A stretch of DNA of 64,000 nt from Agarivorans aestuarii (GTDB lineage: Bacteria; Pseudomonadota; Gammaproteobacteria; Enterobacterales; Celerinatantimonadaceae). The stretch is taken from positions 3,745,501 to 3,809,500 of the forward strand of contig NZ_AP023033.1 in the NCBI RefSeq assembly GCF_019670125.1, given 5' to 3'. The position numbers and the translations under genes are program-made. A model generated the notes under the pieces. The model did not search any database. It was not told the DNA's origin and saw nothing but the letters and a program-made list of their open reading frames with translations. Below are positions 40,863 through 61,900 of this stretch, piece after piece. The first letter of the stretch is position 1. Each line of letters opens with the position of its first letter.

Positions 40863-40911
40863 TTTAACTCCATTAAAAGTCAGTATTTTCCATATAAAAC
40901 AACCGTCAAAA

Positions 40912-40925
40912 AGTAAGCGCTTTCT
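40912..40925. promoter_or_regulatory. LacI-type operator site A
   Basis: AGTAAGCGCTTTCT, centred on AAGCGCTT, 50 bp before the LamB-like ATG and downstream of the presumed promoter. Confidence 0.7.
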
Positions 40926-41083
40926 TTTCTTGGCTAAAAAAATGAAAATCTCTAATGCGCAAAGCTCACAAAACAGCCCTAAGTGGCTTAATGAGACAAA
41001 GACCAGTAAAAACACATTAAAAAACTTTCATTTTTAGTATAAATATTTAGTAAATAACATAATGTGACCGCCCCCACACAAAA

Positions 41084-42226: not shown

Positions 42227-42367
42227 AACAGTTCCCTTTATGTCTAGCAATGCACGCCATACCTTGTGCCACGGGCGATACAGCCATTGCCATTTAGTAC
42301 CTATAAATGTGTTCCGCTTAGCATTTTCTAGTAAAAACACCGACAGACTTCACGTTCAACACACCAA

Positions 42368-42381: not shown

Positions 42382-42500
42382 TTTTAACAATGTAATAATT
42401 CTGTTGCCAAATACAAGGCAAATATTAATCAATAACGCGTTTTGTGAGATGCCTACCAGATAGCATTACTACGCCAAGCAATACCAGAGGTAACAGAGTA

Positions 42501-43790: not shown

Positions 43791-43795
43791 AGACT

Positions 43796-44698: not shown

Positions 44699-46783
44699 CT
44701 AGTAGAAGTAGATATTGTCTAGGTATACGCTATCACTGGTGGTTCCCCAAAGCTGCACGCCAAGTTGCGATAAACTGGCAGCGTCAAACGCACCGGGTTG
44801 AACCATATCTGCAAATACCAGCTCTACACTAATCCACTGCTCGGTTGCTACAGGCAGCATGGTATGGATAACCGGGCCACTGGCAGAAACAATCTGGAAC
44901 ACCGCTTGGCTAACACCACCGGTAGCATACATATCAAAGCGCAAGCCGGTCATGCCAGATGCATTCACAACCCCATCTTGAATGCCATATTGAATGCCCG
45001 TTACACCACCTTCTACACCATCTGGAATAATCTGCAAGCGAGCAACATTGTTCCCTGCTATTTGCAGCTCACTGTGGCTTGGCGCATTCCACCAATTATC
45101 CGACCAATAAGAAATCGGCTTATCTACCTGCAAACTATCACTGTATAAAACCAATACCTCGTCATCGCTCACACTAGGGGTATCGGCAGCCACACTTGGC
45201 CCAGGGTTTTCGGCCGCTAGCACAATCTCTAGGCTGGCATCACTTCCCAATAGCTGCTGATTTTGTTGCGCCGCACCGTAACCACTGGCATCGGCTTTAA
45301 CCTTATGCTCGCCTTCTGCAAGATTAAGGTAAGCCACACCACTGGCGTTAGTAGTTGCACTTTGCTCACCCACACTCACCTCTGCTCCTGCAATGGCTTG
45401 AGAGGATTGGTTTACAACACTTACTGCTAACTCGAAGGTATTTGACTGGCCAGAGAAGTACAGGTTATCTAGAAACACTGCTTTGCCCTGCTCTCCCCAC
45501 AACTTAATGCCGGCCATAGTTAACGTTGCTGGGTTTAATACGCCGTCACCGTCGCCATCAGCATCTTGCATTTCAGCAAAGGGAATTTGATAAGACACCC
45601 ATTGCTCAGTTTGAGGAGAGATAACGCTATACAAAGCTGAGCCATCACTGGAGACTAAGTGGATCTCCATTTGGCTAATGCCCGCCTCTAAATACAAATC
45701 TAGGTTCATATTCACGTGAGAAGATGCATCTACACTGCCATTTTCAATACCAAACTCGATACCAGTAACACCGCCTTCAACGCCCAATCCAGCGATCTCA
45801 TAACGGGCATAGGTGTTACCGTCGATAACACCTGGCGAGTAAAATGGCGCATTCCACCAGTTGGAGTTCCACACCGATATATATTGGTCTTCATTTAAGC
45901 TATCGCTAAAAATCACTACTGCTTCGTTGTCGGCTAAGGCAGGTGGCTGTGGTGCAGCGCTACTTGGTTGGCTAGTCACTAGCTCTTGGCTTAACATGTA
46001 AATATCTGTGAGCAACAAGCTATCACTGATGGTGCTATCAAAAATTAAACCCAGCCAAGTCAACTGGCTAAAGCCATAAGGCAGAGGAACTTCCATTTCT
46101 ACCCAACCATCATCTAATGGCGTTCCTGTGTCCAAAGCGTAAGCAACTTTAGATTCAGGATTGCTTGGCCCTTGCAATACCACCTCTACCGCTGTAAATG
46201 AATTGGCTTTTATCTTAAATCTAAGGTGGGTATAAGCATCAATCGCTACCGCATTCTCAGGCTCGTTCCCCCAAGCAATAGACGCTTTATTGCCCCAGGC
46301 GGTGCCACTGGTGATATTAACAACGCGACCCATACTTGCATCATCAAGGTCACTAATTACGCTGCCAGATCCCCAGTTATCTCCCCAGTGTTCAATGTTA
46401 TAGGAGCTATCATTGTCGGAGTGAAAAACATATAAAGGCCCGCTAACTGTTGGCAGCGCTTCCAAATTAATACTTACGCTTAAGCCTTGCTCGCCAAGCT
46501 CTATAGACTGTTGGTGAGTTTGATATCCAGCCAAACTCACGCTTAAGGAATAGCTACCAGCAGCTAGATCAAAGCTAGAGTAACCTTGCTGATCACTTGT
46601 TCGAGCCTGCTCTGCAATGCTTACCTGGGCATCTGCTAATGGTAATTGGCTATTTGCATCCACTACCGTGACAGCAACTTGATAAGCATTTTGTGGCTCT
46701 GGGTCTGTATCGCTGCTGCCTCCACACCCTAGCATTAAGGCACAACAAACAGCCAAAAAGTAAATTTTGAGCATTTCAATCAT
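44699..46783 (-). CDS. Modular surface lipoprotein with repeated glycan-binding-like domains
   Basis: Lipoprotein of 694 aa (lipobox LMLGC), start ATG 46783 with AGGATAAT upstream. An Ig-like/carboxypeptidase-regulatory-like domain (about 32-92), three related beta-sandwich modules (about 95-270, 285-445, 540-694) and another Ig-like domain (about 448-525) are visible. Modules two and three share the pattern SVWNSNWWNAP / SYWSDNWWNAP and EGGVTGIEFG / EGGVTGIQYG. Tryptophan-rich beta-sandwiches suggest carbohydrate binding. No catalytic domain is seen. It is probably a surface capture protein for glucan next to GH16/GH17. Confidence 0.75.
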   Translation of the reverse strand: MIEMLKIYFLAVCCALMLGCGGSSDTDPEPQNAYQVAVTVVDANSQLPLADAQVSIAEQARTSDQQGYSSFDLAAGSYSLSVSLAGYQTHQQSIELGEQGLSVSINLEALPTVSGPLYVFHSDNDSSYNIEHWGDNWGSGSVISDLDDASMGRVVNITSGTAWGNKASIAWGNEPENAVAIDAYTHLRFKIKANSFTAVEVVLQGPSNPESKVAYALDTGTPLDDGWVEMEVPLPYGFSQLTWLGLIFDSTISDSLLLTDIYMLSQELVTSQPSSAAPQPPALADNEAVVIFSDSLNEDQYISVWNSNWWNAPFYSPGVIDGNTYARYEIAGLGVEGGVTGIEFGIENGSVDASSHVNMNLDLYLEAGISQMEIHLVSSDGSALYSVISPQTEQWVSYQIPFAEMQDADGDGDGVLNPATLTMAGIKLWGEQGKAVFLDNLYFSGQSNTFELAVSVVNQSSQAIAGAEVSVGEQSATTNASGVAYLNLAEGEHKVKADASGYGAAQQNQQLLGSDASLEIVLAAENPGPSVAADTPSVSDDEVLVLYSDSLQVDKPISYWSDNWWNAPSHSELQIAGNNVARLQIIPDGVEGGVTGIQYGIQDGVVNASGMTGLRFDMYATGGVSQAVFQIVSASGPVIHTMLPVATEQWISVELVFADMVQPGAFDAASLSQLGVQLWGTTSDSVYLDNIYFY

Positions 46784-46929: not shown

Positions 46930-48261
46930 TTATTTGAAGTGTTTACGACGAAAAACCAGCAGACCAGCTAAACCAAGCAAAGTTACTAAGCCAAAGCTGC
47001 CACCACCCGAATCACCATCAGATTGATCATCAGCAGGCTCACTGCTTGCTTGAACAGTAAAATCTAAACCATCGCGGGTGCTAAGTTGGTTATCGGCGTT
47101 ATGCTCTAGGCTTACTTGTAGGGAGTAACTGCCATCAAGCATTGACGCAGGGTCAAATTGCAGAGTGGTTCCTTGCATAATTGGACTAGGTAATTCATCT
47201 GCTTGCCAATACAAACTGTAATTAGCAAGTGGCTCTTCACTCTGCTCAATGTTGGCAGTTACCGTAACCATACCGGCAGAAGGGTCGACTAAGCGAGTAT
47301 CATTACCTGCTTGAGTAAGGCTAAGTTCAACACTGGCTAAACTGTCGCTAGGCTCAGAATCATCGGCTCGGGGCGCATTCTCATCACAGTAGCTGGCGTC
47401 ACTGCTATCACTGGCTTGGCAATGGGCAATGTAATCAACTTCCATAGTGGCGAGTGCTAAATTAGGATCGATAAAACCACCCAAATTGCCGCCCATGGCC
47501 AGATTAAGCAATACAAACATAGGCTCTTTATACTGGTTGCAGCCGCTAATATCCTGGCTAACTACCAGCGTTTCATCTACGTAAAAGTCTATTTTGTCTT
47601 GGGTCCACTCCATGGCGTATTTGTGCCAATTTAGTACATCGCTACCACCGTTTGGATAGCTATAACGATGCTCTTCACCACAACCTGATACATTAAAGAA
47701 ATTAGTGATATAGGTGTTTGGTTCATTGGAAAACCACTCCCATACATCAATTTCTCCAGCCCCAACATTCGGCCAATTAACGTTGTCTCCATCACCTTTA
47801 ATTGGCTGCTCTGAAATGCGGTTTTCTAGCATCCAAAATGCTGGCCAAGTACCTGCTTCTAGGTTGTGAAAACGGATCCTCGATTCAACCCGACCATACA
47901 GAAACTCTCGTTTGTCTTTTGAATTTAAGCGCCCCGAGGTCCAGGTTTTTTGTTGACCGCCTAAAGTTGCGCAGTTTTGAGTTTGTTTGCGGGCAATAAT
48001 TTTTAAGCTACCTTCCGAAACCTCATAGTTGCGCTCATCAGAGTAATCGTCGTCGGTATAACATTGCACTTCATTGTTATAGTTTGCTTGAGTTTGGGCG
48101 GTCCAGTTGCTCCAATCTACCCGGCTACCATCAAAGGTGTCGATCCACTGTACTTCCCAGCCTGCTTGAGCCGACTGAGTAGCTGCAAAAAACAAACCGG
48201 CCAACAGCGTTGCTTTTTTCGCGACTGTAAAACGGCTTACTGCATCATCTTGAGAAAACAT
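46930..48261 (-). CDS. Secreted GH16 beta-1,3-glucanase (laminarinase) with GlyGly-CTERM
   Basis: Endo-acting laminarinase of 443 aa. Signal peptide to about residue 33 (QSAQA). The GH16 domain (about 34-285) has the catalytic motif GEIDVWEW with nucleophile E170, D172 and acid/base E175, in the laminarinase style. An Ig-like domain follows (about 300-405). The C-terminus is Gly-rich, then a hydrophobic helix and basic end (GGGSFGLVTLLGLAGLLVFR), the GlyGly-CTERM signal for rhombosortase processing of type II secreted proteins. The strain's gspAB genes are in this window. Confidence 0.92.
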   Translation of the reverse strand: MFSQDDAVSRFTVAKKATLLAGLFFAATQSAQAGWEVQWIDTFDGSRVDWSNWTAQTQANYNNEVQCYTDDDYSDERNYEVSEGSLKIIARKQTQNCATLGGQQKTWTSGRLNSKDKREFLYGRVESRIRFHNLEAGTWPAFWMLENRISEQPIKGDGDNVNWPNVGAGEIDVWEWFSNEPNTYITNFFNVSGCGEEHRYSYPNGGSDVLNWHKYAMEWTQDKIDFYVDETLVVSQDISGCNQYKEPMFVLLNLAMGGNLGGFIDPNLALATMEVDYIAHCQASDSSDASYCDENAPRADDSEPSDSLASVELSLTQAGNDTRLVDPSAGMVTVTANIEQSEEPLANYSLYWQADELPSPIMQGTTLQFDPASMLDGSYSLQVSLEHNADNQLSTRDGLDFTVQASSEPADDQSDGDSGGGSFGLVTLLGLAGLLVFRRKHFK

Positions 48262-48421: not shown

Positions 48422-50308
48422 TTACTCCAACCAAGAAATGTTACGAATTTCTATGTTGCTTAAGGTTGGCGCACTGCCACCTGATTCAGCATAAAGATCC
48501 GCAATAGTGAACGGTGAATTAACCACGCTAAGATCAGCAGCAGCAAAGTTAGAGAAGCTGCTTAAGCTAATGGTGTGTTCAACCCACTGGTCAGTTAGGG
48601 TGTAACCTTGGCCTTCGTTAAAGCGAACCCAATGGTTAGTGCCGCCCGAGGCCGTTGTTTGGAAACCAAGGTAGAAGCCATAAGCTGCATCACCTTTAAT
48701 TTCGAAGGTAATCTGGGTAGAGCTTGAAAGGTTACTAGTTTGTCCAGGAATACCTACGCCAGCACCCCAGCCCCAATCTTTGGCGGTGGCAGGGTCTGAA
48801 GCAATGGTTAATACGCCAGTGGCATCATCTACGCCAGCCCAAGCGGTAGCTGGGCTATCCCAACCATAAGCAACAGCACCTTCGTATAAAGCAGTATTCA
48901 ATACTACAAACTCGCCCTCTTCAGGAGGAGTAACAACAGGAGCATACGGAGGTGGCAAAATAGTTGCCATTAAAGTATCAAAGTCACCGCCAAAGCTAGC
49001 TGTAAACGAAGATACATCACCACGGGTTAAACCAGCGCTGTTTAAAGCATCTACTTTATCCCAGGCTAGGTACTTAACGTTGCCGTCAATATCAATTAAG
49101 CCAAAGTGTTTTTCTGAGTGCCCAGGGTTGCTTTCATCGCCTTTCCACGGTTCGTCAAAGGCTTGGAAGAAAAACAACGACGCACCAAATTCGTTGGTAA
49201 ATGTACGCATTGCATCGTAAAACGCTTTTTGCTTGTACTCGTCGGCAGCTTGGGTACCACCCGCACCAAAGTTTTCATTTGAAACCGTAGACCAGCCCGT
49301 TTCACCGATGTGAATCTGCTTGCTTGAGTCAACAGTATTGATAAAGTCTTGCGCCACTTTAATTTGTGACACTGTATGCAGGTAGGCTTTATCCATTGCT
49401 GAATCAACTTGCTCTTGCACAGTCAATTCTTGCTCGCTGGCAGGTACTTTCCAATCAGCAGAAAAAGTAGGGTCGTAAAGGGTGTCGTGGTGAGCATAAG
49501 TATGCAAAGACACGTAATCTACCGCTTCAATTAATGCGATTAGATCTGCTTGTTCACCAGTATTAGCACTATCGTCTATACCTGCCCATACTGCATGGTT
49601 ATCAGAACTGGTAATCCAAATATTGGCTACCGATGGGTTCTCAGATTTCCATTGCTGTAAATCATTAACGTGGCCAAGAATAATGCCAGGTACTACGTGG
49701 TATTCGGCCCAATTAACCATTGCTTCATTACCTACCGCAATCACTTTGATGATTTCAGGGTAAGCTAAGGCAAGCTCTTTGGCCTTAGCCATTTCTAAAG
49801 CGTTTGCTGGGTTCTCTTGGTCATGAATCACTTGTTGATCAGTCCATGAGTTTAGAGCATCAATCCATACCCCTAACTGCACGTACATTTCAAAAGATTC
49901 ATCTTCGGCCATTAGCTCGGCAATGGCTTGTAATAGGTTCTCGGTATTGCTCTTACCATCAAGGCCAATGAAACCTTGAGTATTGTAGGTACGGAGCATT
50001 TTTATGCCCATGGCCGATAAAATTTGCATGTCTTCTTTATGCATATCAACGGTAGGTACATTAACGCCACTTTCTCTTACTGTTGAACGCCAAGCACCAT
50101 AAGAAATCGCCAAGTAATCGGGGTTGCCCAAGATTACATCGCCATTTAGAGCACTAGGATAATTGCTGCCAGGGCCAGGTTGAGGAGCAAGCTCGGTGCC
50201 TGTTCCTGGACCAGGATCGCCTAATTCCCCCATAGGCTCATCGGCACAAGCCACCATTAATACCGACATGGCGGCCAGCAAAATTGATTTTAAACTACAT
50301 ATTTTCAT
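48422..50308 (-). CDS. GH17-family beta-1,3-glucan hydrolase lipoprotein
   Basis: Lipoprotein of 628 aa from ATG 50308 (MKICSLKSILLAAMSVLMVAC, Cys21); the frame extends to 50407. The catalytic TIM barrel spans about 60-455, with acid/base E195 in VGNEAMVNW and nucleophile E336 in IHIGETGWS, as in GH17. A C-terminal beta-sandwich (about 485-628) is a likely binding module. GH17 enzymes in marine bacteria degrade laminarin. Anchoring at the cell surface (no Asp at +2, Ala follows Cys) would release oligosaccharides near the porin. Confidence 0.9.
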   Translation of the reverse strand: MKICSLKSILLAAMSVLMVACADEPMGELGDPGPGTGTELAPQPGPGSNYPSALNGDVILGNPDYLAISYGAWRSTVRESGVNVPTVDMHKEDMQILSAMGIKMLRTYNTQGFIGLDGKSNTENLLQAIAELMAEDESFEMYVQLGVWIDALNSWTDQQVIHDQENPANALEMAKAKELALAYPEIIKVIAVGNEAMVNWAEYHVVPGIILGHVNDLQQWKSENPSVANIWITSSDNHAVWAGIDDSANTGEQADLIALIEAVDYVSLHTYAHHDTLYDPTFSADWKVPASEQELTVQEQVDSAMDKAYLHTVSQIKVAQDFINTVDSSKQIHIGETGWSTVSNENFGAGGTQAADEYKQKAFYDAMRTFTNEFGASLFFFQAFDEPWKGDESNPGHSEKHFGLIDIDGNVKYLAWDKVDALNSAGLTRGDVSSFTASFGGDFDTLMATILPPPYAPVVTPPEEGEFVVLNTALYEGAVAYGWDSPATAWAGVDDATGVLTIASDPATAKDWGWGAGVGIPGQTSNLSSSTQITFEIKGDAAYGFYLGFQTTASGGTNHWVRFNEGQGYTLTDQWVEHTISLSSFSNFAAADLSVVNSPFTIADLYAESGGSAPTLSNIEIRNISWLE

Positions 50309-50368
50309 CTTTTTTCCACCAGTTAAATTGAAACAATTAACCTGATACTTCCTTGAAAATGAGAATAC

Positions 50369-50382
50369 TTTTAGCGCATTCT
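50369..50382. promoter_or_regulatory. Weak half-operator upstream of GH17
   Basis: The right half GCGCATTCT matches eight of nine bases of the operator half GCGCTTTCT, but the left half does not match. About 60 bp before the GH17 start. Listed as a doubtful site. Confidence 0.25.
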
Positions 50383-50396
50383 CGGTGACTAATAAA

Positions 50397-50426
50397 TGCA
50401 GGGGCACTTAGCAAAATGCCCCTGCA
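50397..50426 (-). terminator. Terminator of the 782-aa lipoprotein gene
   Basis: TGCAGGGGCA (50397-50406) pairs with TGCCCCTGCA (50417-50426). On the minus strand TTTATT follows. It lies 9 bp after the stop. Confidence 0.75.
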
Positions 50427-50434
50427 ATCTAAGC

Positions 50435-52783
50435 TTACGGTTGAGCGCTAAAGCTGATGTTGTCGAAATACATAACGGTATCAGCAGGGCGAACCTCTAC
50501 GATGGGGTCATCAAAGTCTGGGAATACTACGACTTCAATCATATCTCCTTGTGCAGCAGCTGCGGCAAACTCTGGATGCTGACTAAAATCAAAAGTCAGC
50601 TCTTCCCATTCACCCACCTTAGTATTGCTAGCAATAATCTCTGCTCCCCATTGGTTAGCCGCTGCCAACTTAAGGCGTACCGCGCTAATTTTGTCTTTAT
50701 AAACCATCATCTTCACGGTGCTATTGCTAGTGTTAAGCTCGAAACCTTCTACTGATCGAGTCACTGTACCAGCCCATGGTGCACCAGCTGCGCGAGCGGT
50801 AATTTTGGCGACCGTAGCAGAGCCGTTAATGCCAGAGGTATCGGGGTTAGCAACAAACTCAATAACTGGGTTGTCGTCGTTTTCAAATACTTCCCAACTC
50901 AGTGTTTTGTTTTCAAAGTCAATACCTTCATCAATGGTTACAGTGTTGTCATCACCAGCGATTGGCGCTTCTGTTCCGCCAGTGGAAGAGACTTGAACAT
51001 TGTCGACTAAGTATTTAGAACCAATGCCGGTTCCCCATGCTGGGAAAATCATCACCACGTCAATAGCACTTGGATCTAGACCTGCAGTTTGCAGATCGCG
51101 TAGATCAAAGCTGTAGTGCTTCCAAGTATCTAGCACCGGCAGTTCAGCTAGGCTCAGTTCCGCAAAACCAGTTCCACCGTTTGATTCAACTTTAAACTTC
51201 CAATCGGTTGCGCCACCTTCGGCGGTCAATTTCAAGTCAAAAGAGATAGATCCACCGTTTGCCCAAGCACTTGCATCAATAGGCGTTCCGTCGGTAGCTC
51301 CGTGGTCGGCACGACTACTAAAGCCATTAACCTGCTCACCAACTACTTCGAACTCTGTTGCTGCACCATAGGTATCATCGCTGTCGGTTACCACTGGAGG
51401 GGTGGTTCCGCCACAACAATCCCAGGCTATCCAGCTTGGATCTTCGGCATCGTTAAAGATAACAACAGACTCACCTGCAGGCGGGTCTACTGGGTCTACT
51501 GGGTCTACTGGGTCTACTGGGTCTACTGGGTCTACTGGGTCTACTGGGTCTACTGGGTCTACTGGGTCTACTGGGTCAGTAGTGTCTTCTTGTTCTACAA
51601 AGGTCACGTCATCCCAGTAAAAAACTTTGTCTTCACTGGCGTCGACTAAGAAATCGAAGAAAATTGATTTTTTGTTAAAGGTAAATTCTGGGTTAAGTTG
51701 CTGGGTACCATCTGCAACATTGGTAAAGTCGAAGCTAAGTTTTCCCCAAGCTTCTGCCACGGTAGTGTAAGCAAGCACCTCAGCGGTTTGCGTATCGTCA
51801 TCAGCGTTTTCTACTTTAAGTAGCACAGGTACGCCCGATTCAGGTGAATACACCCAAACACTAATGATGCTGCGATCTTGGGTAATTGCTAATGTTGTGG
51901 TATCGCCCAGAGTGGTGCCAGCCCAATCTTCTGCGGCAGCTGCTTTAGTAGTTTTAATTACCGTAGCGCTTGTGCTGTAAGCAGTAATGCCATTTAAGGC
52001 CGGATTAGCTGCGGATAACTCGGTTACTGCGCCGCCAAAATCCGTCATGGGTAAATCTAATGATAGTTTTGTTCCGGTGTCAGCATCTGGGTTAGTTGGT
52101 TCTACCGGATCAACAGGGTCGGTAGTGTTACCGTCTGCCACAAACTCTACATTGTCTACACGGTAAACTGCGCCTTCTCCTTCTCCCCAAGCTGGGTAGA
52201 TTAAGATGTTATCAATACTGCTTAGGTCTAAGCCTTGGGTCGCTAAGTCGGCAAGGTTCACACTAACGTGCTGCCAAGTATCTAACACCGGAGCGGTGAT
52301 CATTATTTCAACTTCTTCACCACCAGCGTCATTTTGTATGCCGCCATTACTTTCTAGTTTTACCGCCCAGTTCACATCGCCTGGGCTGGCTGTCATTTTA
52401 AGGTCAAATTCCAAAGTACCGGTGCTTTCCATCGCACTCGCATCTAGAGCACCACGTTCACTATCACGTACAAAACCTAAAACCGCAGGCTGAGCATTAA
52501 TCGCAAACTCGGTGACCATACCGTAGTCACTAAGCTCAATTGGATTCGTTGGCGTGGTACCACCACAACAATCCCACGCAGGCCAATAAGGGTTTACCGC
52601 ATCATTAAACACCAAAAGGTCGTTACCTACTGGATCAGTTGGCTCAACTGGATCGGTAGGCTCTACAGGATTTTGGGGGGTTTCGCCATTTACGACTTCG
52701 TCAGCACAACCACTTAACGCAAGAGCCAAAGCGGCAGCTAATACGGTATTGGCCAGTTTGAATTTGCTATTTGTCACTGTCAT
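50435..52783 (-). CDS. Large modular glycan-binding lipoprotein with A-B-A-B domain plan
   Basis: Lipoprotein of 782 aa (lipobox LALSGC). After a Pro/Glu/Asp linker come four beta-sandwich modules in the order A-B-A'-B'. The A modules (about 53-210 and 440-605) share FNDA, AWDCCGGTTP, VLDTW and the ending PAWG. The B modules (about 235-400 and 620-780) share AAAEDWAGT / AAGAPWAGT and FYWDDVTF / MYFDNISF. A (Val-Asp-Pro)n linker separates the two halves. No catalytic residues are seen. It is probably a surface capture protein for laminarin, first in line behind operator D. Confidence 0.82.
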   Translation of the reverse strand: MTVTNSKFKLANTVLAAALALALSGCADEVVNGETPQNPVEPTDPVEPTDPVGNDLLVFNDAVNPYWPAWDCCGGTTPTNPIELSDYGMVTEFAINAQPAVLGFVRDSERGALDASAMESTGTLEFDLKMTASPGDVNWAVKLESNGGIQNDAGGEEVEIMITAPVLDTWQHVSVNLADLATQGLDLSSIDNILIYPAWGEGEGAVYRVDNVEFVADGNTTDPVDPVEPTNPDADTGTKLSLDLPMTDFGGAVTELSAANPALNGITAYSTSATVIKTTKAAAAEDWAGTTLGDTTTLAITQDRSIISVWVYSPESGVPVLLKVENADDDTQTAEVLAYTTVAEAWGKLSFDFTNVADGTQQLNPEFTFNKKSIFFDFLVDASEDKVFYWDDVTFVEQEDTTDPVDPVDPVDPVDPVDPVDPVDPVDPVDPVDPPAGESVVIFNDAEDPSWIAWDCCGGTTPPVVTDSDDTYGAATEFEVVGEQVNGFSSRADHGATDGTPIDASAWANGGSISFDLKLTAEGGATDWKFKVESNGGTGFAELSLAELPVLDTWKHYSFDLRDLQTAGLDPSAIDVVMIFPAWGTGIGSKYLVDNVQVSSTGGTEAPIAGDDNTVTIDEGIDFENKTLSWEVFENDDNPVIEFVANPDTSGINGSATVAKITARAAGAPWAGTVTRSVEGFELNTSNSTVKMMVYKDKISAVRLKLAAANQWGAEIIASNTKVGEWEELTFDFSQHPEFAAAAAQGDMIEVVVFPDFDDPIVEVRPADTVMYFDNISFSAQP
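51483..51572. repeat. 9-bp minisatellite, ten perfect units
   Basis: GGGTCTACT repeated ten times without change, then a degenerate eleventh unit. On the coding strand it encodes Val-Asp-Pro repeats joining the two A-B halves of the 782-aa lipoprotein. The unit is three codons, so copy-number change alters linker length without breaking the frame. Confidence 0.97.
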
Positions 52784-52855: not shown

Positions 52856-52869
52856 AGAAAGCGCTTACT
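52856..52869. promoter_or_regulatory. LacI-type operator site D
   Basis: AGAAAGCGCTTACT, 73 bp upstream of the 782-aa lipoprotein start. Confidence 0.7.
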
Positions 52870-53046: not shown

Positions 53047-53239
53047 AAATATTCTTCATACAAATCCTATGAAAAGGCTACCAAGATCAAATCTGCATTA
53101 GCTAAAACCCAGCCAAAGTGTGTGTTATTCAACCGAAAGCACCCCTTAATAGGTAAAAAACGAGCTAAATGTGACCTAAGTAGAAAAACAACCGCCTTTA
53201 GATTGCCTACATTTCAATTCTCAAATAGAGTGCCACAAA

Positions 53240-53253
53240 AGAAAGCGCTTTCT
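53240..53253. promoter_or_regulatory. LacI-type operator site F
   Basis: AGAAAGCGCTTTCT, perfect palindrome identical to site B, 88 bp upstream of the importer binding-protein ATG and over the expected -35 region. Confidence 0.75.
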
Positions 53254-53340
53254 TTTTGGTTTTTAAGACTTATAGTAAGGGCCTTAAGCATTAATAGGAA
53301 AGCGTACCTAGCGAGAGTGCCGATAAAAAAGGATTATCTA

Positions 53341-54978
53341 ATGCAGAGTAAAACGGTTTTATCTTCAATTATTTGCGGTTTAATGTTGTCATCAGGAAGC
53401 GCAATAGCCAACGACGTTAAACAAGGCGGAACCCTTACCGTACCGATCATTGGTACTGGTTTTGTAGAAAACTACAACCCTTATACTTCTAAAGACTTAT
53501 TACACGGTGTGATGTTTGAACCATTAATGGTTTTCAACAATATGACCGGTAAAACTGAATGGCGTCTGGCTAAATCAGCTGAATATTCTGACGATCTTAA
53601 AACCATTAAACTCACCCTTCGTGATGGTTTAACGTGGTCAGATGGCAGTCCACTGACTGCTAAAGACGTTGCCTATAGCTTCACTATGACCAAAGAAAAT
53701 GGTGCATTTGACCAACGTGGTATTTGGACAGACGGCAACCTAATTAGCATTGAAGCAACTAATGACACAACGGTTGAATTCAAGTTGAACCAAGCCGATT
53801 CAACCTTTATCTGGAACTTAGAAAAATACCACATCATTCCAGAAAAGGTATGGAGCAAGGTAAGTGACTTAACCACTTTCACTAACCCTAACCCAATTGG
53901 TAGCGGTCCGATGACCGAAGTGAAGTATGTAAAAACTCAGCAAATGGAGTTGTGCCGCAACCCTAACTATTACTTAGAAGGGTTGCCTCACCTAGATTGT
54001 ATTACCTACCGCTCTTACAACGATAACTCGCAAATTCAACCCGCTTTAATGAAAGGCGAAATTGACTGGGGTTCAAACTTTATTGCTGACATCGACAACA
54101 CCTTTGTTGCCGCAAGCCCAGAAAATCACCACTACTGGTACCCAGCAAATGACGCGATTCATCTATACGTAAACACTAAAGAAGCGCCTTTTAGCGATTT
54201 AGAATTGCGTAAAGCTTTATCAATGTCACTTGACCGTGAATCTATCGTAGATATTGCGGCTTACGGTTATCCAACAGTTAATTTTAATGTTGGTGGTATT
54301 GGCGAATTGTACAGCACCCATATTGATGCTGATGTAACTGCTAAATACAAGGACATCACAACTTATAACCCAGAGAAAGCAAACCAGATGTTAGACGCAG
54401 CTGGTTACATAGACAAAAGCGGTGATGGCTTTCGTCAAACTAAAGATGGCAAGCGCATCGAGTTTGATATTGAAGTTGTAAATGGCTGGACCGATTGGAT
54501 CCAAGTAGTTCAAATGGTGACTGAATACTTCGAAGAAGTAGGCATTAAAGCCAATGTAAAAACCGTTGATTGGGCAGTATATGACTCGTCACTAAAAGAC
54601 AGTAAATACAAAATGTCGATTAACTGGTCGCTAGTAGCTACCCATCCAATCTTAGCCTTCCAAGATTACTACTCTACTTCACGTATTGGTAAAACATGGC
54701 ACGCTGGACATGGTGTACATACCCCTGAGATTGATGCGCTTATTGAAAGCTTCGGTCAGACTAACGATACTGCTGAGCAAGCAAGTATTATTAAGCAGTT
54801 ACAGGTGTTCACTGCAGAGAACTTGCCTTTTATTCCGCTATTTTCTAACCCAACTTGGTTCCAATATAACAGCTCTAAAATTGTTGGTTGGCCAAACGCA
54901 GAAAACCCATATGTACAGCCAGTATGGTACGACGGTGGTAAACGAGTGTTAATAATTAACAATCTTCACCTTAAGTAA
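53341..54978 (+). CDS. Oligosaccharide-binding protein of a peptide-type ABC importer
   Basis: Periplasmic family 5 solute-binding protein (SBP_bac_5) of 545 aa. Start at ATG 53341 (MQSKTVLSSIICGLMLSSGS), which begins the signal peptide ending IAND; the frame extends to 53122 through the operator and cannot be real there. Typical segments are LRDGLTWSDGSPLTAKDVAY and FNPNPIGSGPM-like TNPNPIGSGPM. Family members often bind peptides, but a branch binds cello-, laminari- or chito-oligosaccharides. The glucan context and downstream phosphorylase point to beta-1,3-oligoglucosides. Confidence 0.9.
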   Translation: MQSKTVLSSIICGLMLSSGSAIANDVKQGGTLTVPIIGTGFVENYNPYTSKDLLHGVMFEPLMVFNNMTGKTEWRLAKSAEYSDDLKTIKLTLRDGLTWSDGSPLTAKDVAYSFTMTKENGAFDQRGIWTDGNLISIEATNDTTVEFKLNQADSTFIWNLEKYHIIPEKVWSKVSDLTTFTNPNPIGSGPMTEVKYVKTQQMELCRNPNYYLEGLPHLDCITYRSYNDNSQIQPALMKGEIDWGSNFIADIDNTFVAASPENHHYWYPANDAIHLYVNTKEAPFSDLELRKALSMSLDRESIVDIAAYGYPTVNFNVGGIGELYSTHIDADVTAKYKDITTYNPEKANQMLDAAGYIDKSGDGFRQTKDGKRIEFDIEVVNGWTDWIQVVQMVTEYFEEVGIKANVKTVDWAVYDSSLKDSKYKMSINWSLVATHPILAFQDYYSTSRIGKTWHAGHGVHTPEIDALIESFGQTNDTAEQASIIKQLQVFTAENLPFIPLFSNPTWFQYNSSKIVGWPNAENPYVQPVWYDGGKRVLIINNLHLK

Positions 54979-54986
54979 CACAACTG

Positions 54987-55011
54987 AAGAGAGCCACTAG
55001 TTGGCTCTCTT
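54987..55011 (+). promoter_or_regulatory. Intercistronic hairpin between binding protein and first permease
   Basis: A 10-bp perfect stem (54987-54996 with 55002-55011) and 5-nt loop, 9 bp after the stop, followed only by ACTTT. Such hairpins stabilise the binding-protein message or partly terminate, so that the binding protein is made in excess over the membrane parts. Confidence 0.6.
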
Positions 55012-55026
55012 ACTTTGGAAAATATT

Positions 55027-56001
55027 ATGAGTTTTTTATTACGCCGACTGGGCTTTTACTTTACAGCCTTCTTGATAGCCATCTCCTTTAACTTTTTGTT
55101 ACCCCGGTTAATGCCAGGCGATCCAGTTGACGCATTATTTGCAGCAGCTCAAGGCAGAATGGACCCCGCGCAAATGGACGCGGTTAGAGAAATGTATGGT
55201 TTTATGGATGGCTCGGTTTTTGAGCAATACATTGCCTACATTAAAAGTGTATTTACCTTGGATTTAGGTCCTTCAGTATTAATGTTCCCGGTGGGAGTAA
55301 CTGAAGTGATAGGTATGGCCCTGCCATGGACCATGTTCCTAGCCCTAGGTTCACTGATTGTAGCGCTAATTATTGGGGTATCAATTGGCACCTACGCTTC
55401 TTATCGACGTGAAGGATTTTTTGGTCAGGTATTCCCTCCTGTACTCGCCTTTATTAGTAATTTCCCGTACATCGTTACCGCATTATTACTGTTCTACTTT
55501 TTTGGCTTGCAGTTAGAACTGCTGCCACTGGCTTATACCTATGACCCTACTTTAGACCCTGCCTTTAGTTGGGAGTTTATCGGTAGCGTACTTAAACACG
55601 CCATATTACCGATGGGCTCGATGGTTGTGGTAGGCATTGCCACCTGGGTATTTAACATGCGTAACGCCATGATTAATGTGCTGGGTGAAGACTATGTGAC
55701 GATGGCCGAAGCCAAAGGGCTTTCGAGTTTTCGGGTAATGTACCGCTACGCTGGGCGTAACGCGATCTTACCGGTAGCAACTGCTATTGCCATGGCCATT
55801 GGTTTCTCGTTTGCCGGTTCAATCATGACCGAAGTGGTATTTAACTACCAAGGCTTAGGCAACATCTTGCTTAAAGGTATTGTGGCGCGCGACTACCCGC
55901 TTATTCAGGCTATTTTGCTCATTCTTGTTACTGCGGTACTTACTGCAAACTTCATCGCCGACTTGTTGTATGTCTGGCTTGATCCCCGTATTTCGAAGTA
56001 G
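55027..56001 (+). CDS. ABC importer permease 1 (DppB-like)
   Basis: Inner-membrane permease of 324 aa, six helices. Start ATG 55027 (MSFLLRRLGFYF) with GGAA upstream; a TTG 12 bp earlier is less likely. The N-terminal DppB-type segment LPRLMPGDPVDALF and the EAA loop region (TMAEAKGLSSFRVMYRYAGRNAILPV) identify the family. It pairs with the following permease, 8 bp downstream. Confidence 0.93.
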   Translation: MSFLLRRLGFYFTAFLIAISFNFLLPRLMPGDPVDALFAAAQGRMDPAQMDAVREMYGFMDGSVFEQYIAYIKSVFTLDLGPSVLMFPVGVTEVIGMALPWTMFLALGSLIVALIIGVSIGTYASYRREGFFGQVFPPVLAFISNFPYIVTALLLFYFFGLQLELLPLAYTYDPTLDPAFSWEFIGSVLKHAILPMGSMVVVGIATWVFNMRNAMINVLGEDYVTMAEAKGLSSFRVMYRYAGRNAILPVATAIAMAIGFSFAGSIMTEVVFNYQGLGNILLKGIVARDYPLIQAILLILVTAVLTANFIADLLYVWLDPRISK

Positions 56002-56009
56002 GTTTTACT

Positions 56010-56948
56010 ATGGAACATCATCACAACTCCGCTAAGTGGCGCCAAGTATTAGCCAAGTGTTTAGCCTTTTTTCATGGTAATCCACCGGCAATTATTGGCG
56101 GATTACTAGCTACAATTATTTTGCTCGGTGCACTATTTGCTCCAGCAATTGCAACACACGATCCACAAAAACGTGTATCCAGACCTCACCAAGCGCCAAG
56201 TGCCGAATACATTATGGGCACAACCCGTAACGGCCGCGACGTTTTTAGCCAAGTGCTTTTTGGCGCCCGTAAATCACTAACGGTTGCGATTACTGCCGGT
56301 ATTATTGCCATGAGCATTGCGGTAGCCGTTGGCGTTAGTTCTGGTTACTTTGGTGGCAAAATTGATGAATGGTTAAACTTCATCACCAATGTGTTTTTGG
56401 TTTTTCCGCAACTGCCCTTATTGATTGTATTAGCCGCCTTTCTTGGGCAAGTGGGCTCCTTAGTGATAACCGTGCTGCTGGGGGTCACCTCCTGGCCATG
56501 GGGCGCTAGGGTTATCAGAGCCCAAACAATGGCAATACGAAACAAAGAGTTCATCATCTCGGCCGAGGTAATGGGCGAATCCAAGCTGCGCATCATCTTA
56601 GTGGAAATTCTTCCTAACTTAGTTTCTATCGTATTTGGTGGCTTTTTGGGTACGGTGATTTACGCCATGGGCTCTGAGGCCGGTTTAGGCATATTAGGTT
56701 TAGGCGACGCCACCGAAGTTAGCTGGGGCTCTATGCTCTACTGGGCGCAAGTTTCTTCTTCTCTCTACACCGGCGCATGGTGGGAGATGTTAGTACCAGC
56801 CTTAGCTCTAGCCTTTACCGGTGGTGCGCTAGCGCTAATTAACATGTCAATTGACCAAGTAAGTAATCCAAAACTTAAAACTGGTCCGCACCTAAAAGTA
56901 TGGAAAAAACTGCAAAAAGCAGCCAATCAACGTCGAGGTTTAGCATGA
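56010..56948 (+). CDS. ABC importer permease 2 (DppC-like)
   Basis: Inner-membrane permease of 312 aa. Typical DppC features are HDPQKRVSRPHQAPSAEYIMG-type lead-in (in part), GTTRNGRDVFSQVLFGARKS and the EAA loop (SAEVMGESKLRIILVEILPN). The stop overlaps the next start as ATGA, so the ATPase is translationally coupled. Confidence 0.93.
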   Translation: MEHHHNSAKWRQVLAKCLAFFHGNPPAIIGGLLATIILLGALFAPAIATHDPQKRVSRPHQAPSAEYIMGTTRNGRDVFSQVLFGARKSLTVAITAGIIAMSIAVAVGVSSGYFGGKIDEWLNFITNVFLVFPQLPLLIVLAAFLGQVGSLVITVLLGVTSWPWGARVIRAQTMAIRNKEFIISAEVMGESKLRIILVEILPNLVSIVFGGFLGTVIYAMGSEAGLGILGLGDATEVSWGSMLYWAQVSSSLYTGAWWEMLVPALALAFTGGALALINMSIDQVSNPKLKTGPHLKVWKKLQKAANQRRGLA

Positions 56949-57913
56949 GCCAAGCATTACTAGAGATTAACAACCTAAGCGTTGACTATGTTTCACCCAA
57001 TGGCATTGCTCGCGCGGTAAACAATGTAAGTTTAAGCATTGCCCCAGGCGAGACCCTTGGCCTAGCCGGTGAGTCGGGTTGCGGTAAAAGCACCCTCGCC
57101 TTCGCGATTTCTCGTTTACATAAAGCACCCGCGCTAATCCCTGAAGGAGAAATCCTTTATAAGGGCAAGGACGTGCTGAAAATGAACGATAAACAGCTAC
57201 GGGCATTTCGCTGGAATGACACCTCGGTAGTATTCCAAAGTGCCATGAACTCACTTAACCCAGTAATCACCATTGGTGAGCAGTTAATCGATGTTATTTT
57301 GGCTCACAAGCAAGTCAGTCTAAAACAGGCCAATGAGAAAGCCACTGAGTTGCTGTCGGTAGTGGGTATTCATGGCGATCGCTTAAAAAGCTTCCCTCAC
57401 CAATTAAGTGGTGGCATGCGCCAACGTGTCGTTATCGCTATCGCCTTAGCGCTAGAGCCAAAGCTAATCATTATGGATGAACCAACCACTGCACTAGACG
57501 TAGTGGTTGAACGAGAGATCCTTAATGAGCTTTACGATCTAAAAGAGAAGTTTGGCTTCTCGATTTTGTTCATTAGCCACGACTTAAGCTTAATGGGCGA
57601 AATAGCCGACCGTATTGGAGTTATGTACGCCGGTAACTTGATTGAAATTGGCGACGCCAAAACAGTATTTAACCAGCCTAGCCACCCTTATACCAAAGGT
57701 TTGGTTTCGTCGTTCCCAACCATTCATGGGCCAAAAGAGCGCTTATACGGGATCCCAGGCGACCCGGTAAACCTGCTCAAATTACCTAGCGGCTGTAACT
57801 TTCAAGCACGCTGTAACGATTGTGTAGAAAACTGTAAAAGCGATGAACCTATTTTGCGCGCACAAGCTAGCGGTGTTCATGCTGCTTGTCATATTTTGGA
57901 GGTTCAAAAATGA
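56945..57913 (+). CDS. ABC importer ATPase 1 (DppD-like)
   Basis: Cytoplasmic ATPase of 322 aa. Start ATG 56945 in the ATGA overlap. Walker A GESGCGKST, signature LSGGMRQR, Walker B LIIMDEPTTALD and the H-loop FISHDLSL are intact. The oligopeptide/dipeptide C-terminal domain (PSGCNFQARCNDCVENC) carries cysteines that bind an iron-sulfur cluster in some relatives. Coupled to the second ATPase by another ATGA overlap. Confidence 0.94.
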   Translation: MSQALLEINNLSVDYVSPNGIARAVNNVSLSIAPGETLGLAGESGCGKSTLAFAISRLHKAPALIPEGEILYKGKDVLKMNDKQLRAFRWNDTSVVFQSAMNSLNPVITIGEQLIDVILAHKQVSLKQANEKATELLSVVGIHGDRLKSFPHQLSGGMRQRVVIAIALALEPKLIIMDEPTTALDVVVEREILNELYDLKEKFGFSILFISHDLSLMGEIADRIGVMYAGNLIEIGDAKTVFNQPSHPYTKGLVSSFPTIHGPKERLYGIPGDPVNLLKLPSGCNFQARCNDCVENCKSDEPILRAQASGVHAACHILEVQK

Positions 57914-58893
57914 GCGTAGTAAGCGAAAATCAAACCGTACTTGCGGTAGAAAACTTAATTAAAGACTTTCCCATTGGTTTATCGTCTAACCCAAATAACC
58001 TAATGCGGGCAGTTAACGATGTATCTTTTGAGCTTAAAAAGGGCCAAGCCTTAGCGATTGTTGGAGAGTCTGGCTCCGGTAAAAGTACCGGTGCTCGGGT
58101 GCTAACACGCATCTATGAGAAAAATGGCGGTGACATCCTATTTAAGGGCCTGCCTTTGGATGAGTTTGTAAAACAACATGGTTCGCTAGAATATGCTCGC
58201 CAAGTACAAATGATCTTCCAAGACCCCTTTGGCTCACTTAACCCAGTGCATTCAATCTACCACCATATTGCTCGCCCCTTGCTAATTCACAAACGCGCCA
58301 GCAAAAAAGAACTACGCAACAAGGTTTACGAGTTGCTCGATTTAGTAGGCCTTTCGCCAGTAGTGGAAACCGCCGAGAAATACCCCCATGAGCTAAGTGG
58401 TGGTCAACGCCAGCGGGTTGCTATTGCCCGCGCACTAGCGGTTGACCCAGAAGTTATCTTAGCTGACGAGCCGATTTCAATGTTAGACGTATCGGTGCGC
58501 TTGGGCATTTTGAACCTTATGGCCGATTTAAAAGACAAACGTGGCATCAGTTTCATGTACATCACTCATGATATTGCTACCGCGCGCTACTTTGCAGAAA
58601 AGACTGCTGTTATGTACGTAGGCCACATGGTGGAATGGGGCAACAGTGACAAAGTAACCCAAACGCCCCAGCACCCTTACACCAAGCTATTACTGTCGGC
58701 GGTGCCAGAAGCAAGTAAAAGTGGCCGCCGTGAACTAGGTGCGAAAAAGGGAGACATACCTATGTGGCACCCTAACTCAGTGGGTTGCCCATTTGCTGCG
58801 CGTTGTCCAAATGCATTGGACAAGTGTAATCAAGCATTTCCAGAAGTGACTCAAATTGCCGACGATCACTTCATACGTTGTTTTAACGTTTAA
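57910..58893 (+). CDS. ABC importer ATPase 2 (DppF-like)
   Basis: Cytoplasmic ATPase of 327 aa. Start ATG 57910 in the ATGA overlap. Walker A GESGSGKST, signature LSGGQRQRVAIARAL, Walker B VILADEPISMLD and H-loop MYITHDIA. C-terminal oligopeptide domain CPFAARCPNALDKC. It forms a heterodimer with ATPase 1. The five-gene set SBP-permease-permease-ATPase-ATPase matches the peptide/oligosaccharide importer layout. Confidence 0.94.
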   Translation: MSVVSENQTVLAVENLIKDFPIGLSSNPNNLMRAVNDVSFELKKGQALAIVGESGSGKSTGARVLTRIYEKNGGDILFKGLPLDEFVKQHGSLEYARQVQMIFQDPFGSLNPVHSIYHHIARPLLIHKRASKKELRNKVYELLDLVGLSPVVETAEKYPHELSGGQRQRVAIARALAVDPEVILADEPISMLDVSVRLGILNLMADLKDKRGISFMYITHDIATARYFAEKTAVMYVGHMVEWGNSDKVTQTPQHPYTKLLLSAVPEASKSGRRELGAKKGDIPMWHPNSVGCPFAARCPNALDKCNQAFPEVTQIADDHFIRCFNV

Positions 58894-58915
58894 CAAGAAT
58901 TTTTTTGCGCTGCAA

Positions 58916-58929
58916 AGTAAGCGCTTACA
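58916..58929. promoter_or_regulatory. LacI-type operator site G, inside the operon
   Basis: AGTAAGCGCTTACA, containing the perfect palindrome GTAAGCGCTTAC. It lies between ATPase 2 and the phosphorylase, 30 bp before its start. An internal promoter may exist here, or the site may act as a roadblock to transcription from upstream. Confidence 0.7.
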
Positions 58930-58958
58930 TGGATTTTAAGCTAATGAAAGAAGAAAAC

Positions 58959-61900
58959 ATGGATACATTAACAAAAGACATCACCGGAGAGTTTGTCTCT
59001 ATTGATGGTGATAAATACTACCAAATCAAAAACGTCGATCAGATGGCCCCGTTTTTTATCAGTGTGGTTTCAGCCAGCGACCATTGGTTATTCATCTCTT
59101 CAACCGGTTGTTTATCGGCAGGGCGCATTCGCCCAGAGAACGCTTTGTTTCCCTACAAATCTGTAGATTACATCCATGAAAATGCGGAAAACACTGGCAG
59201 TAAAACCATTGTTAAAGTGACTAGCGAAGCCGGTATCCAGCAGTGGGAACCCTTCAACCAACATCACGACAGCTTGTACCAATTGCGCCGCAATATTTAC
59301 AAGAATATTGCCGGTGACAAAATCATCTTTGAAGAGCTTAACTTTGATTTAGGCTTAAGCTTTAAGTACCAGTGGAGCAGCAGCGAAAAGTTTGGTTTTG
59401 TTCGCCAAGCAACACTCACCAATACCACCCATAAAACCCGTGAAATAGAGCTAGTGGATGGTATTCAAAACTTGTTGCCGTCTAATACGCCGTTCTCGAT
59501 TATGCAAGGCAGCAGCGCCCTGCTTGATGCCTACAAATGGAATGAGCGCGAAGCCAACTCTAGCCTAGCCACCTACAGCTTATATGCCAAATTAAGCGAC
59601 CGCGCCGAGCCTGCAGAATCACTGTTAGCCACTAGCGTGTTCTCGCTGGCAGAAAACTGCCAATCAATTCTATTGTCTAGCCAACAGTTAGCGGCATTTC
59701 GCCGTGGCAGCTCAGTAGAAGACGAGCAACTAACCCGTGGAGTAAGAGGCTCGTACTTCATTCATAAGAAGTTAACACTTGCCGCGGCTGCACAGGACAG
59801 CTGGAGCATTGTCGCCGACGTAGACCAGTCACACGCCCAGTTAGCAGAGTTGCAGCAGCAAATCAGCAAGCCGCAACAACTTGAGCAAGCGGTTATGGCA
59901 TCGGTTGAACAAAACCATCAGGAACTTCTTAAGCTTATGGCTGGCAGCGATGCTTACCAAAAAACCGCAGAAGACGAGACCAGCGTACACCACTACGCCA
60001 ACGTATTGTTTAACAACATGCGCGGTGGTGTGGTTGTTGACCAGTACTGGGTTGAAAGTGCAGATTTTGTGAAAACCCTAAAAAATGCCAATACCCAAAT
60101 AGCGCTAGACCAAGCAAGCTTCTTAAATAGCTTGCCAGCTAAGATCAACTACGACGAGCTACTATCTCTAGCGGCTAAACAAAACAGCCCGCAATTATTG
60201 CGTTTGTGCCACGAGTACTTACCGCTTACTTTTGGCCGTCGCCACGGCGACCCAAGCCGCCCTTGGAATCATTTCGAGATCAAGCTAAAAGATAACCAAG
60301 GCAACCGTTTATTGTCTTACCAAGGTAACTGGCGGGACATTTTCCAAAACTGGGAAGCACTAGGCGTAAGTTACCCAAGCTTTATTAAGAGCTTTATTGC
60401 CAAGTTTGTGAATGCCTCGACCATTGACGGCTACAACCCTTACCGCATCACTAAAGCCGGGGTAGATTGGGAGCTATTGGAATCTGACGACCCATGGAGC
60501 AACATTGGTTACTGGGGCGATCACCAAATCATCTATTTGCTTAAGTTTTTGGAGCAGTCAGACAAATACCAACCTGCAGAGCTAAAAGCCCTGCTAGATA
60601 CAGAGATTTTTAGCTACGCCAATGTGCCTTACGAGATCTCTTCAGCAGAAGCGATTTTTGCCGACGCCAAAAACACCGTTGAATTTAACGAAAACAAACA
60701 GAAAATCATTGAAAGCCGCCAAAGCGTAATGGGCAGCGATGCTCGCCTATTGCTTGACCAAAACCAAGAAGTCTACTTGGCAAACTTGGCTGAAAAACTA
60801 TTGGTTCCGCTGCTCGCTAAGCTAGGAAACTTAGTGTTAGACGGCGGTATTTGGTTAAATACCCAACGCCCAGAATGGAACGATGCCAACAACGCGATTG
60901 TGGGTACTGGCTTGTCCATGGTAACCCTTTATTACATGCGTCGTTATGTGGCCTTTATGCAAAAACTATTTGCCGACAACAAGCAATACGCCATGTCTAA
61001 AGAGCTCGCCGAGTGGTTAAGCGCTAGCAGTAAAATTTTACAAGAGGCTAGCCAACTAGTCGCGGCTGCGCCAGTAAACGAAACTCAACGTAACCAAGTA
61101 TTACGTGACTTGGCCAAGGCCGCAGCAGATTACCGCCAACATGTTTACCAACATGGCTTCTCTGGCAAAGTAACCGTAGATGTAGCAGATATTCAAGCAC
61201 TACTTGCTCCAAGCCTAGAGATTATGGATAAGAGTATTGCCAGCAACTACCGTAACGACGGTTTGTACAACGCTTATAACATCATTAATTATAAACAAGA
61301 TGAAGTGGCTGTAGATTACCTCTACCCAATGTTAGAAGGCCAAGTTGCAGTATTGTCTGCTGGAGTACTCACACCAGACGAAGCGGTTCACTTACTCGAT
61401 AAGTTATACAACAGCAGTATGTACCGCGCGGATCAGCACACCTTTATGCTTTATCCCGATCGCGACTTAGCGGGCTTTGCCAATAAAAACCGAATTTTAG
61501 CAGCGCGTGTTGCGGCTAACCCTGCACTGCAAACCATGCTTGAGAAGCACGACCCACGTATTGTGGAGCAAGATAACCAAGGTCACTACCACTTTAATGC
61601 TGATTTTGAGAATGCAGGTGCGCTAACCGCTGCTATTGGCGTCGCCAAAGCAGATTACCCAGAAGTCGCCGACTCAGCCTGGCAAGAGATCTTTGCCGTT
61701 TACGAAGAAGTGTTTAACCACCAAGCCTTTACTGGTCGCTCTGGCACAATGTTTGGCTATGAAGGTCTAGGTTCAATCTACTGGCATATGGTGTCTAAGT
61801 TATTGTTAGCGGTGCAAGAGAACTATTTTGCCGCCTACAAACTTGACCCGCACTCCTTAGCTACTCAACAACTAGCTGAGTACTACTACAAAGTACGAGC

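Follow-up and report, generated by a model that had tools for sequence, protein, structure and literature searches.

A laminarin-locus lipoprotein of Agarivorans aestuarii built from two kinds of carbohydrate-binding-type modules

Results

Gene content of the locus

The stretch of DNA analysed here (hereafter the window) comprises 64,000 nucleotides of the Agarivorans aestuarii genome and contains a group of genes for the use of beta-1,3-glucans (Table 1). According to the ORF listing, a single open reading frame of 782 amino acids on the minus strand spans positions 50435 to 52783 exactly, and frame 1 of the plus strand is full of stops across the same interval. About 28 bp downstream of this lipoprotein gene lies the GH17 gene, the product of which is 51% identical over 642 amino acids to the GH17 enzyme of Vibrio comitans. 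The genes for the importer and the GH149 phosphorylase are divergent from the lipoprotein gene, and beyond them are found a LacI regulator gene, situated just outside the window (L005:2369-3427), and genes for two more GH16 enzymes. The true start of the SBP_bac_5 gene is probably near 53335, and the four further importer genes were named by sequence as two permease-like and two ATPase-like genes. No SusC/SusD pair was present among the scanned neighbours (GH16, GH17, SBP5-type ABC importer, GH149 and LamB). One of the three beta-sandwich-type (CBM-like) modules in the second, 694-aa lipoprotein is distantly related to module A of the 782-aa protein, and kin of these modules occur in giant Enterovibrio proteins. 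Within the genus, a lipoprotein gene adjoins both GH17 and the importer in all five genomes that have GH17, the window's own included; in Vibrio comitans one adjoins LacI and GH17.

Several further observations were made around the locus. A methyl-accepting chemotaxis protein gene (window 37160-39181) adjoins the LamB gene, which may point to a link with the sensing of the same sugar. A GGDEF protein gene, followed by a gene for a 277-aa exported protein without a Pfam match (window 42444-44629), is kept beside the locus in two congeneric genomes (G002 and G003). In the GH17 match of the latter genome (L040) one TAA codon was observed, so that this GH17 may be broken or the match may overrun an end.

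Table 1. Features of the laminarin locus, in window coordinates
Feature	Position	Strand	Evidence
LamB-type porin	39510..41015	-	operator sites 40912, 41084 at or before start
MalM-like protein	41255..42340	-	operator site 42368
Second lipoprotein, 694 aa, no catalytic domain found: two CarboxypepD_reg and three beta-sandwich-type modules	44699..46783	-	Pfam, module comparison
GH16 glucanase, GlyGly-CTERM-like tail	46930..48261	-	Pfam, NCBIfam
GH17 beta-1,3-glucanase, C-terminal binding-type domain	48422..50407	-	Pfam GH17 26.8 bits, just under cut-off 28.2
Lipoprotein, A1-B1-linker-A2-B2, 782 aa, without recognised catalytic domain	50435..52783	-	ORF, Pfam/NCBIfam, module comparison
Module B2, residues 616-782, homologue of 8qx6	50438..50938	-	profile, sequence, fold
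Module A2, residues 437-602	50978..51475	-	AlphaFold2 mean pLDDT 93.9; CBM30/CBM11-type fold
Cys456-Cys457 of A2	51413..51418	-	Cys positions, A alignment
(Val-Asp-Pro)10 linker	51483..51577	-	perfect 9-bp DNA repeat, 10.6 copies
Module B1, residues 245-399 as aligned; start perhaps near 235	51587..52051	-	aligned modules
Module A1, residues 54-217	52133..52624	-	aligned modules; Exop_C and CBM30 sub-cut-off Pfam matches
Cys72-Cys73 of A1	52565..52570	-	Cys positions, A alignment
Signal peptide and lipobox, residues 1-26, LALSGC	52706..52783	-	translation, Cys positions
Operator-like palindrome AGAAAGCGCTTACT, upstream of lipoprotein gene	52856..52869		genome-wide site search
SBP_bac_5 binding protein and four further importer genes	53122..58893	+	Pfam (SBP_bac_5)
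Operator-like palindrome AGAAAGCGCTTTCT, before divergent importer genes	53240..53253		genome-wide site search
GH149 1,3-beta-D-glucan phosphorylase	58905..62390	+	NF058639, 1767 bits, cut-off 1150

Architecture of the lipoprotein

The initial annotation described the 782-aa protein as a non-catalytic surface lipoprotein without a SusD-like fold that consists of two related A modules and two related B modules joined by a Val-Asp-Pro linker, and our data agree with this description as regards the lipobox, the modules, the linker and the lack of catalytic and SusD matches. A signal peptide with a lipobox is present, and its Cys26 is followed by Ala and not by Asp, the residue that in this position causes a lipoprotein to be retained in the inner membrane. 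A similar leader is found on the G002, G003 and Vibrio comitans proteins. The A1 and A2 modules share 47% identity (E 3e-46) and the B1 and B2 modules 30% (E 5e-10), which is far beyond chance. The linker is likewise real, being encoded by a perfect repeat, and its repeat number differs by species, with (VDP)10 in the window and (VDP)6 and (VDP)3 in two close orthologues. Three copy numbers in three species of one genus indicate that the length of the linker is free to vary.

No catalytic family (Pfam, NCBIfam) and no SusD family (Pfam) was matched by the protein at E 1. Structure prediction, which had been proposed as a check, pointed in the same direction, since the AlphaFold2 models of A2 and B2 are both CBM-like beta-sandwiches, not the SusD fold, and match non-catalytic modules over their whole length. 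The Pfam matches of the whole protein to PhiKZ_gp35, WxL and Amelogenin fall wholly or partly on VDP/VEP linkers and were set aside. Two matches in the own genome, at 2134807 and 983768, fall mainly on the linker (query 354-449 and 399-510), and we did not treat them as relatives; a PDB search with the whole protein as a single sequence returned repeat-linker and chance matches only.

Module B belongs to a known family of laminarin-binding modules

An alignment of B modules (21 of the 22 listed rows, the near-duplicate L033 being omitted) was used as a profile against the PDB, which returned 8qx6_A with an E value of 1.7e-16, the next match being at 0.47. The B2 module alone also matched 8qx6 (E 1.6e-6), whereas 8qx6 did not surface with the whole-protein query. 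B1 on its own matched nothing in the PDB at E 1, and its membership in the 8qx6 family follows from its kinship with B2. The same relationship was evident at the level of the fold: for the AlphaFold2 model of B2 (mean pLDDT 84.8, 21 sequences), 8qx6 was ranked first by Foldseek and aligned with a VIA Z of 16.1 and an rmsd of 2.6 A over 149 of 167 residues, with 27% identity across the structural alignment, the next Z being 13.4. The 8qx6 entry is titled 'Novel laminarin-binding CBM X584' and its protein is listed as 'PKD domain-containing protein'; we take it to be CBM102 from a surface glycan-binding protein of Christiangramia forsetii, the protein from which Zuhlke et al. are said to have set up that family in 2024. 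Judged by sequence and fold, module B is a member of this solved laminarin-binding family, and laminarin binding by module B itself is predicted.

Module A has the fold of CBM30 and CBM11 and carries a pair of adjacent cysteines

For module A we compared 37 sequences, which are the listed matches minus 11 cross-hits that are B modules. The AlphaFold2 model of A2 built with these 37 sequences has a mean pLDDT of 93.9, and its best structural matches are CBM8, CBM30, agarase N-terminal domains, CBM11, CBM29 and the extra C-terminal domain of ExoP (VIA Z 12.8-15.2). With CBM30, a Foldseek E of 7e-8 and a VIA Z of 14.6 (rmsd 2.9 over 151 of 166 residues) were obtained. The A2 model thus matches the CBM30/CBM11 fold as a whole domain, but a shared fold does not fix the ligand: the CBM families that resemble A in this way are several, with differing ligands, and CBM11 among them was solved in complex with mixed-linkage glucan (beta-1,3-1,4-tetrasaccharides). 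By sequence, the window protein stays below the curated cut-offs of Exop_C (PF18559; 23.9 versus 26.1 bits) and CBM30 (PF21582; 19.4 versus 27 bits), and a Colwellia protein with A modules passes both Exop_C (56.3 versus 26.1 bits) and SGBP_B_XBD (33.7 versus 26.4 bits). In the PDB, the A modules reached none of the solved laminarin-binding structures by sequence. The A profile found nothing convincing there, with CBM30 chains at 0.007 and, as its best match, a trypanosome surface glycoprotein at E 0.0033 that we judged to be due to chance. The tail of the GH17 neighbour showed no significant pairwise match with A or B (E 0.26 or worse).

Five tryptophans (Trp451, Trp454, Trp528, Trp554 and Trp583 in A2 numbering) are invariant in all 37 A modules. 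The initial annotation had singled out a distinctive AWDCCGGTTP motif with two adjacent cysteines. The motif does occur twice in the window protein, AWDCCGG starting at residues 69 and 453, and it is not unique to this protein: CCGGTTP marks a module that GH16 enzymes of Colwellia and Pseudoalteromonas have as well. The only cysteines of the window protein are at residues 26, 72-73 and 456-457. A Cys-Cys pair occupies the motif in 34 of the 37 aligned A modules, where it represents the sole cysteines of the module, and the other three have no cysteine at all (SS, NA and SD in this position), so that one Cys alone was never seen. Outside these 37, inspection by eye revealed an A module in L045 with DCCGG plus two extra cysteines, and two A modules in L046 without cysteine. 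As the pair has no partner elsewhere in the module, the options for an exported module are limited to a vicinal disulfide, pairing with another molecule or module, a metal, or free thiols. The absence of the pair from three modules suggests that it is not needed for the fold.

The modules are attached to glucanases in other bacteria

One scan of genome contigs revealed 12 related loci. CysCys A modules are found two or three in tandem in large proteins of Colwellia and Pseudoalteromonas; in two relatives that were scanned with Pfam (L013 and L015) GH16 is located at the start with the A modules behind it, and seven more (L016-L019, L022, L023 and L029) are GH16-like as judged by similarity or by eye. 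In Grimontia (L012) a GH17 domain precedes both A and B, and in Enterovibrio (L010) the two modules and a GH17-like stretch are encoded by one ORF. The Vibrio comitans lipoprotein has the order A-A-A-B and is encoded directly before GH17. This very locus also has such a fusion: a GH16 enzyme encoded about 13 kb beyond the lipoprotein gene ends with an A'-B' pair (L005:5584-7635). In the window protein, modules of a kind that elsewhere accompany glucanases stand free on a lipid anchor. In a class-wide draw of 369 genomes, A modules were detected at E 1e-12 in four, the window's own genome among them, which indicates that module A is rare.

Two Enterovibrio ORFs of about 2500 aa (L010:5360-12949 and L011:4865-12355) encode long strings of A-, B- and Q-type binding modules. 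Outside the gammaproteobacteria, a Calditrichaeota contig (L014:2926-4362) encodes a protein of 478 aa in which a B module is combined with a Q-like module and a Por_Secre_tail domain.

Separate origins of the modules and their exchange within the genus

If the A-B pair had been duplicated in tandem within this lineage, as the initial annotation assumed, A1 and A2 should be sisters in a tree, and so should B1 and B2. This was not observed. A1 clusters with the A module that comes first in the Vibrio comitans lipoprotein (support 98/96), whereas A2 groups with modules from Enterovibrio, Grimontia and other Vibrio (support 100/98). Similarly, the nearest kin of B1 beyond its orthologues are the B modules of GH16 enzymes from the same genus (support 99/96), whereas B2 groups with modules of Enterovibrio and Vibrio (support 99/98). 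In AU tests, a single clade of the lineage's A1 and A2 was rejected (p-AU 9.7e-5) and so was one of B1 and B2 (p-AU 1.2e-4); these p-values are somewhat flattering, since the tested grouping, that of the initial annotation, was evaluated after inspection of the trees and some branches are long. Trees and tests together rule out a tandem duplication of the A-B pair and point to separate origins of the modules. The simplest story suggested by the sequences is that of an old A1 ... A2-B2 frame common to this lineage and Vibrio, which would have received a differing middle module in each.

Among the seven genomes of the genus, three have this protein (the window included), the other two copies being 94-96% identical to it. 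In two genomes, the position between the importer and GH17 is occupied by another lipoprotein, of 776 or 788 aa. Its leader is very similar, but it carries a Cys-less A-like module (identified by eye) together with three Bact_surface_Ig-like domains and CBM_4_9 modules. Neither lipoprotein nor GH17 was found in the remaining two, of which one (G006) has GH149. The same leader in the same place with other modules behind it implies a conserved anchor that carries different binding modules.

Operator-like palindromes shared across the locus

The divergent promoter region between the lipoprotein gene and the importer genes contains the palindrome AGAAAGCGCTTNCT at 52856 and at 53240. In the entire 4.69-Mb genome only eight distinct exact sites were found, and seven of these are located within 27 kb (between 3786412 and 3813839), from the LamB gene to the last GH16 gene. 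The clustered sites lie at or before the starts of the genes for the LamB porin, the MalM-like protein, the lipoprotein and importer, and the two far GH16 enzymes. When two mismatches were allowed, the window contained 18 matches compared to 3.1 expected, palindromes being counted on both strands in both figures, and none of 100 shuffles reached that number. The lipoprotein gene is thus apparently co-regulated with the laminarin locus, and since a LacI gene is near, the LacI protein probably binds these palindromes. The presence of the laminarin-locus operator at or before the LamB and MalM-like genes suggests that the 'maltoporin' encoded at 39510..41015 may serve beta-1,3-glucan oligosaccharides rather than maltose.

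Discussion

Laminarin is a main carbon store of marine algae, and in Bacteroidota its capture is the task of SusD and surface glycan-binding proteins. It is less clear how gammaproteobacteria with porin/ABC-type import hold laminarin at their surface, and the present locus provides a concrete candidate with a testable ligand. Because of the homology of its modules, their fusion partners, the gene neighbourhood and the shared operators, we consider it by far the likeliest reading, and one that we hold with good confidence, that the lipoprotein is a non-catalytic protein that captures laminarin at the cell surface. From the same observations we infer that it is located on the outer face, that laminarin is the ligand of all four modules and that capture is multivalent. 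In such a mechanism, the lipid at the N-terminus would anchor the protein, which would display two kinds of beta-sandwich carbohydrate-binding module, four modules in all, with a flexible (Val-Asp-Pro)n stretch between the halves. Aromatic residues of the modules would bind laminarin chains and keep them close to the GH17 and GH16 glucanases expressed alongside, which would raise the local supply of oligosaccharides; these would enter via the LamB-type porin and the ABC importer, and would then be phosphorolysed by GH149.

There is a modest chance that the ligand is not laminarin but a mixed-linkage or other beta-glucan, or a cell-wall beta-glucan of algae or fungi, bound via CBM30/CBM11-type A modules with B merely helping. 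CBM30 and CBM11 are among the nearest folds of A, CBM11 with its beta-1,3-1,4-tetrasaccharide complexes, and the C-terminal domain of a Vibrio vulnificus GH17 enzyme binds laminarin and barley beta-glucan alike in affinity gels, and mutants show that it requires three tryptophans (PMC9026390). Against a mixed-linkage ligand speak the GH17, GH16 and 1,3-beta-glucan phosphorylase genes of the locus and the kinship of B with a laminarin-binding module. It seems somewhat less probable still that the main role of the lipoprotein is that of a scaffold or adhesin by which cells attach to algal surfaces, and not that of feeding the importer. A multi-module lipoprotein with a long linker would suit such a function, as would the Ig-like domains between binding modules that congeners have in the same place, but the operators are common to importer, porin and enzymes, and GH17 directly adjoins the gene in the genus and in Vibrio comitans. 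That the protein is an enzyme of an unrecognised family, as one might suppose because both module types of the window protein score below the curated Pfam cut-offs, is highly improbable in view of the confident or fair beta-sandwich models that match non-catalytic modules whole-length and of the accessory role of kin modules next to GH16 and GH17 domains.

The cysteine pair of module A deserves consideration. Vicinal disulfides are rare, but there are known cases in which one packs against the undecorated face of a sugar ring, for example in arabinofuranosidase 1wd4 (PMC12102755). A sugar-stacking vicinal disulfide in module A is an attractive idea, and the pair may be one of these rare sugar-contacting structures. 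A more far-reaching proposal, which we put forward tentatively and consider rather doubtful as a whole, is that A represents an uncatalogued beta-1,3-glucan-binding family with a ring-stacking vicinal disulfide, and that the protein is the porin/ABC counterpart of SusD and SGBPs. The two cysteines of W-x-x-W-D-C-C-G-G would then be linked into an eight-membered vicinal disulfide ring, which would stack against the bare face of a glucose next to the invariant tryptophans, and a conserved lipid-anchored leader in a fixed place of the laminarin locus would be loaded by the lineages with differing binding modules. For studies along these lines the genus offers a natural module-swap series, with the same leader, the same place and different binding modules.

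Among known systems, the Vibrio vulnificus GH17 C-terminal domain is similar in being a non-catalytic beta-sandwich tied to a GH17 beta-1,3-glucanase (PMC9026390). The equivalent part in this locus would be the tail of the neighbouring GH17 enzyme, and neither module A nor module B. Module A shares its fold with CBM30, CBM11 and the ExoP C-terminal domain (Pfam CBM30, Exop_C), and is also akin to the xyloglucan-binding domain of SGBP-B (SGBP_B_XBD); unlike CBM30 and Exop_C, the A family has an invariant Trp-x-x-Trp and, in 34 of 37 modules, the Cys-Cys pair, and the window's A modules remain below the cut-offs of both models. Module B resembles 8qx6 in sequence (B2 and the B profile) and in fold. 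The protein of 8qx6 reportedly has four like modules and belongs to a Bacteroidota SusC/D locus, whereas in the window protein B alternates with the unlike module A in a gammaproteobacterial LamB/ABC locus. As in the SGBPs of Bacteroidota PULs, a multi-domain non-catalytic lipoprotein is encoded beside glucanases; unlike there, the import genes are those of a LamB porin and an ABC importer, with no SusC/SusD among the scanned neighbours. In the titles and abstract openings that we searched, which covered few subscription papers, we found no description of such a laminarin-capturing protein in gammaproteobacteria, Vibrio or Pseudoalteromonas. The suggestion of the initial annotation that this could be a distinct type of surface glycan-binding protein is thus correct in part: the A module with its CysCys pair and the LamB/ABC context do differ, but the family of B is known from 8qx6, and surface proteins with multiple CBMs are known in Bacteroidota. 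As a kind, the protein is close to the known CBM-built surface glycan-binding proteins; what is new is the bacterial group with its import system, the CysCys A module, and the exchange of modules on a fixed leader.
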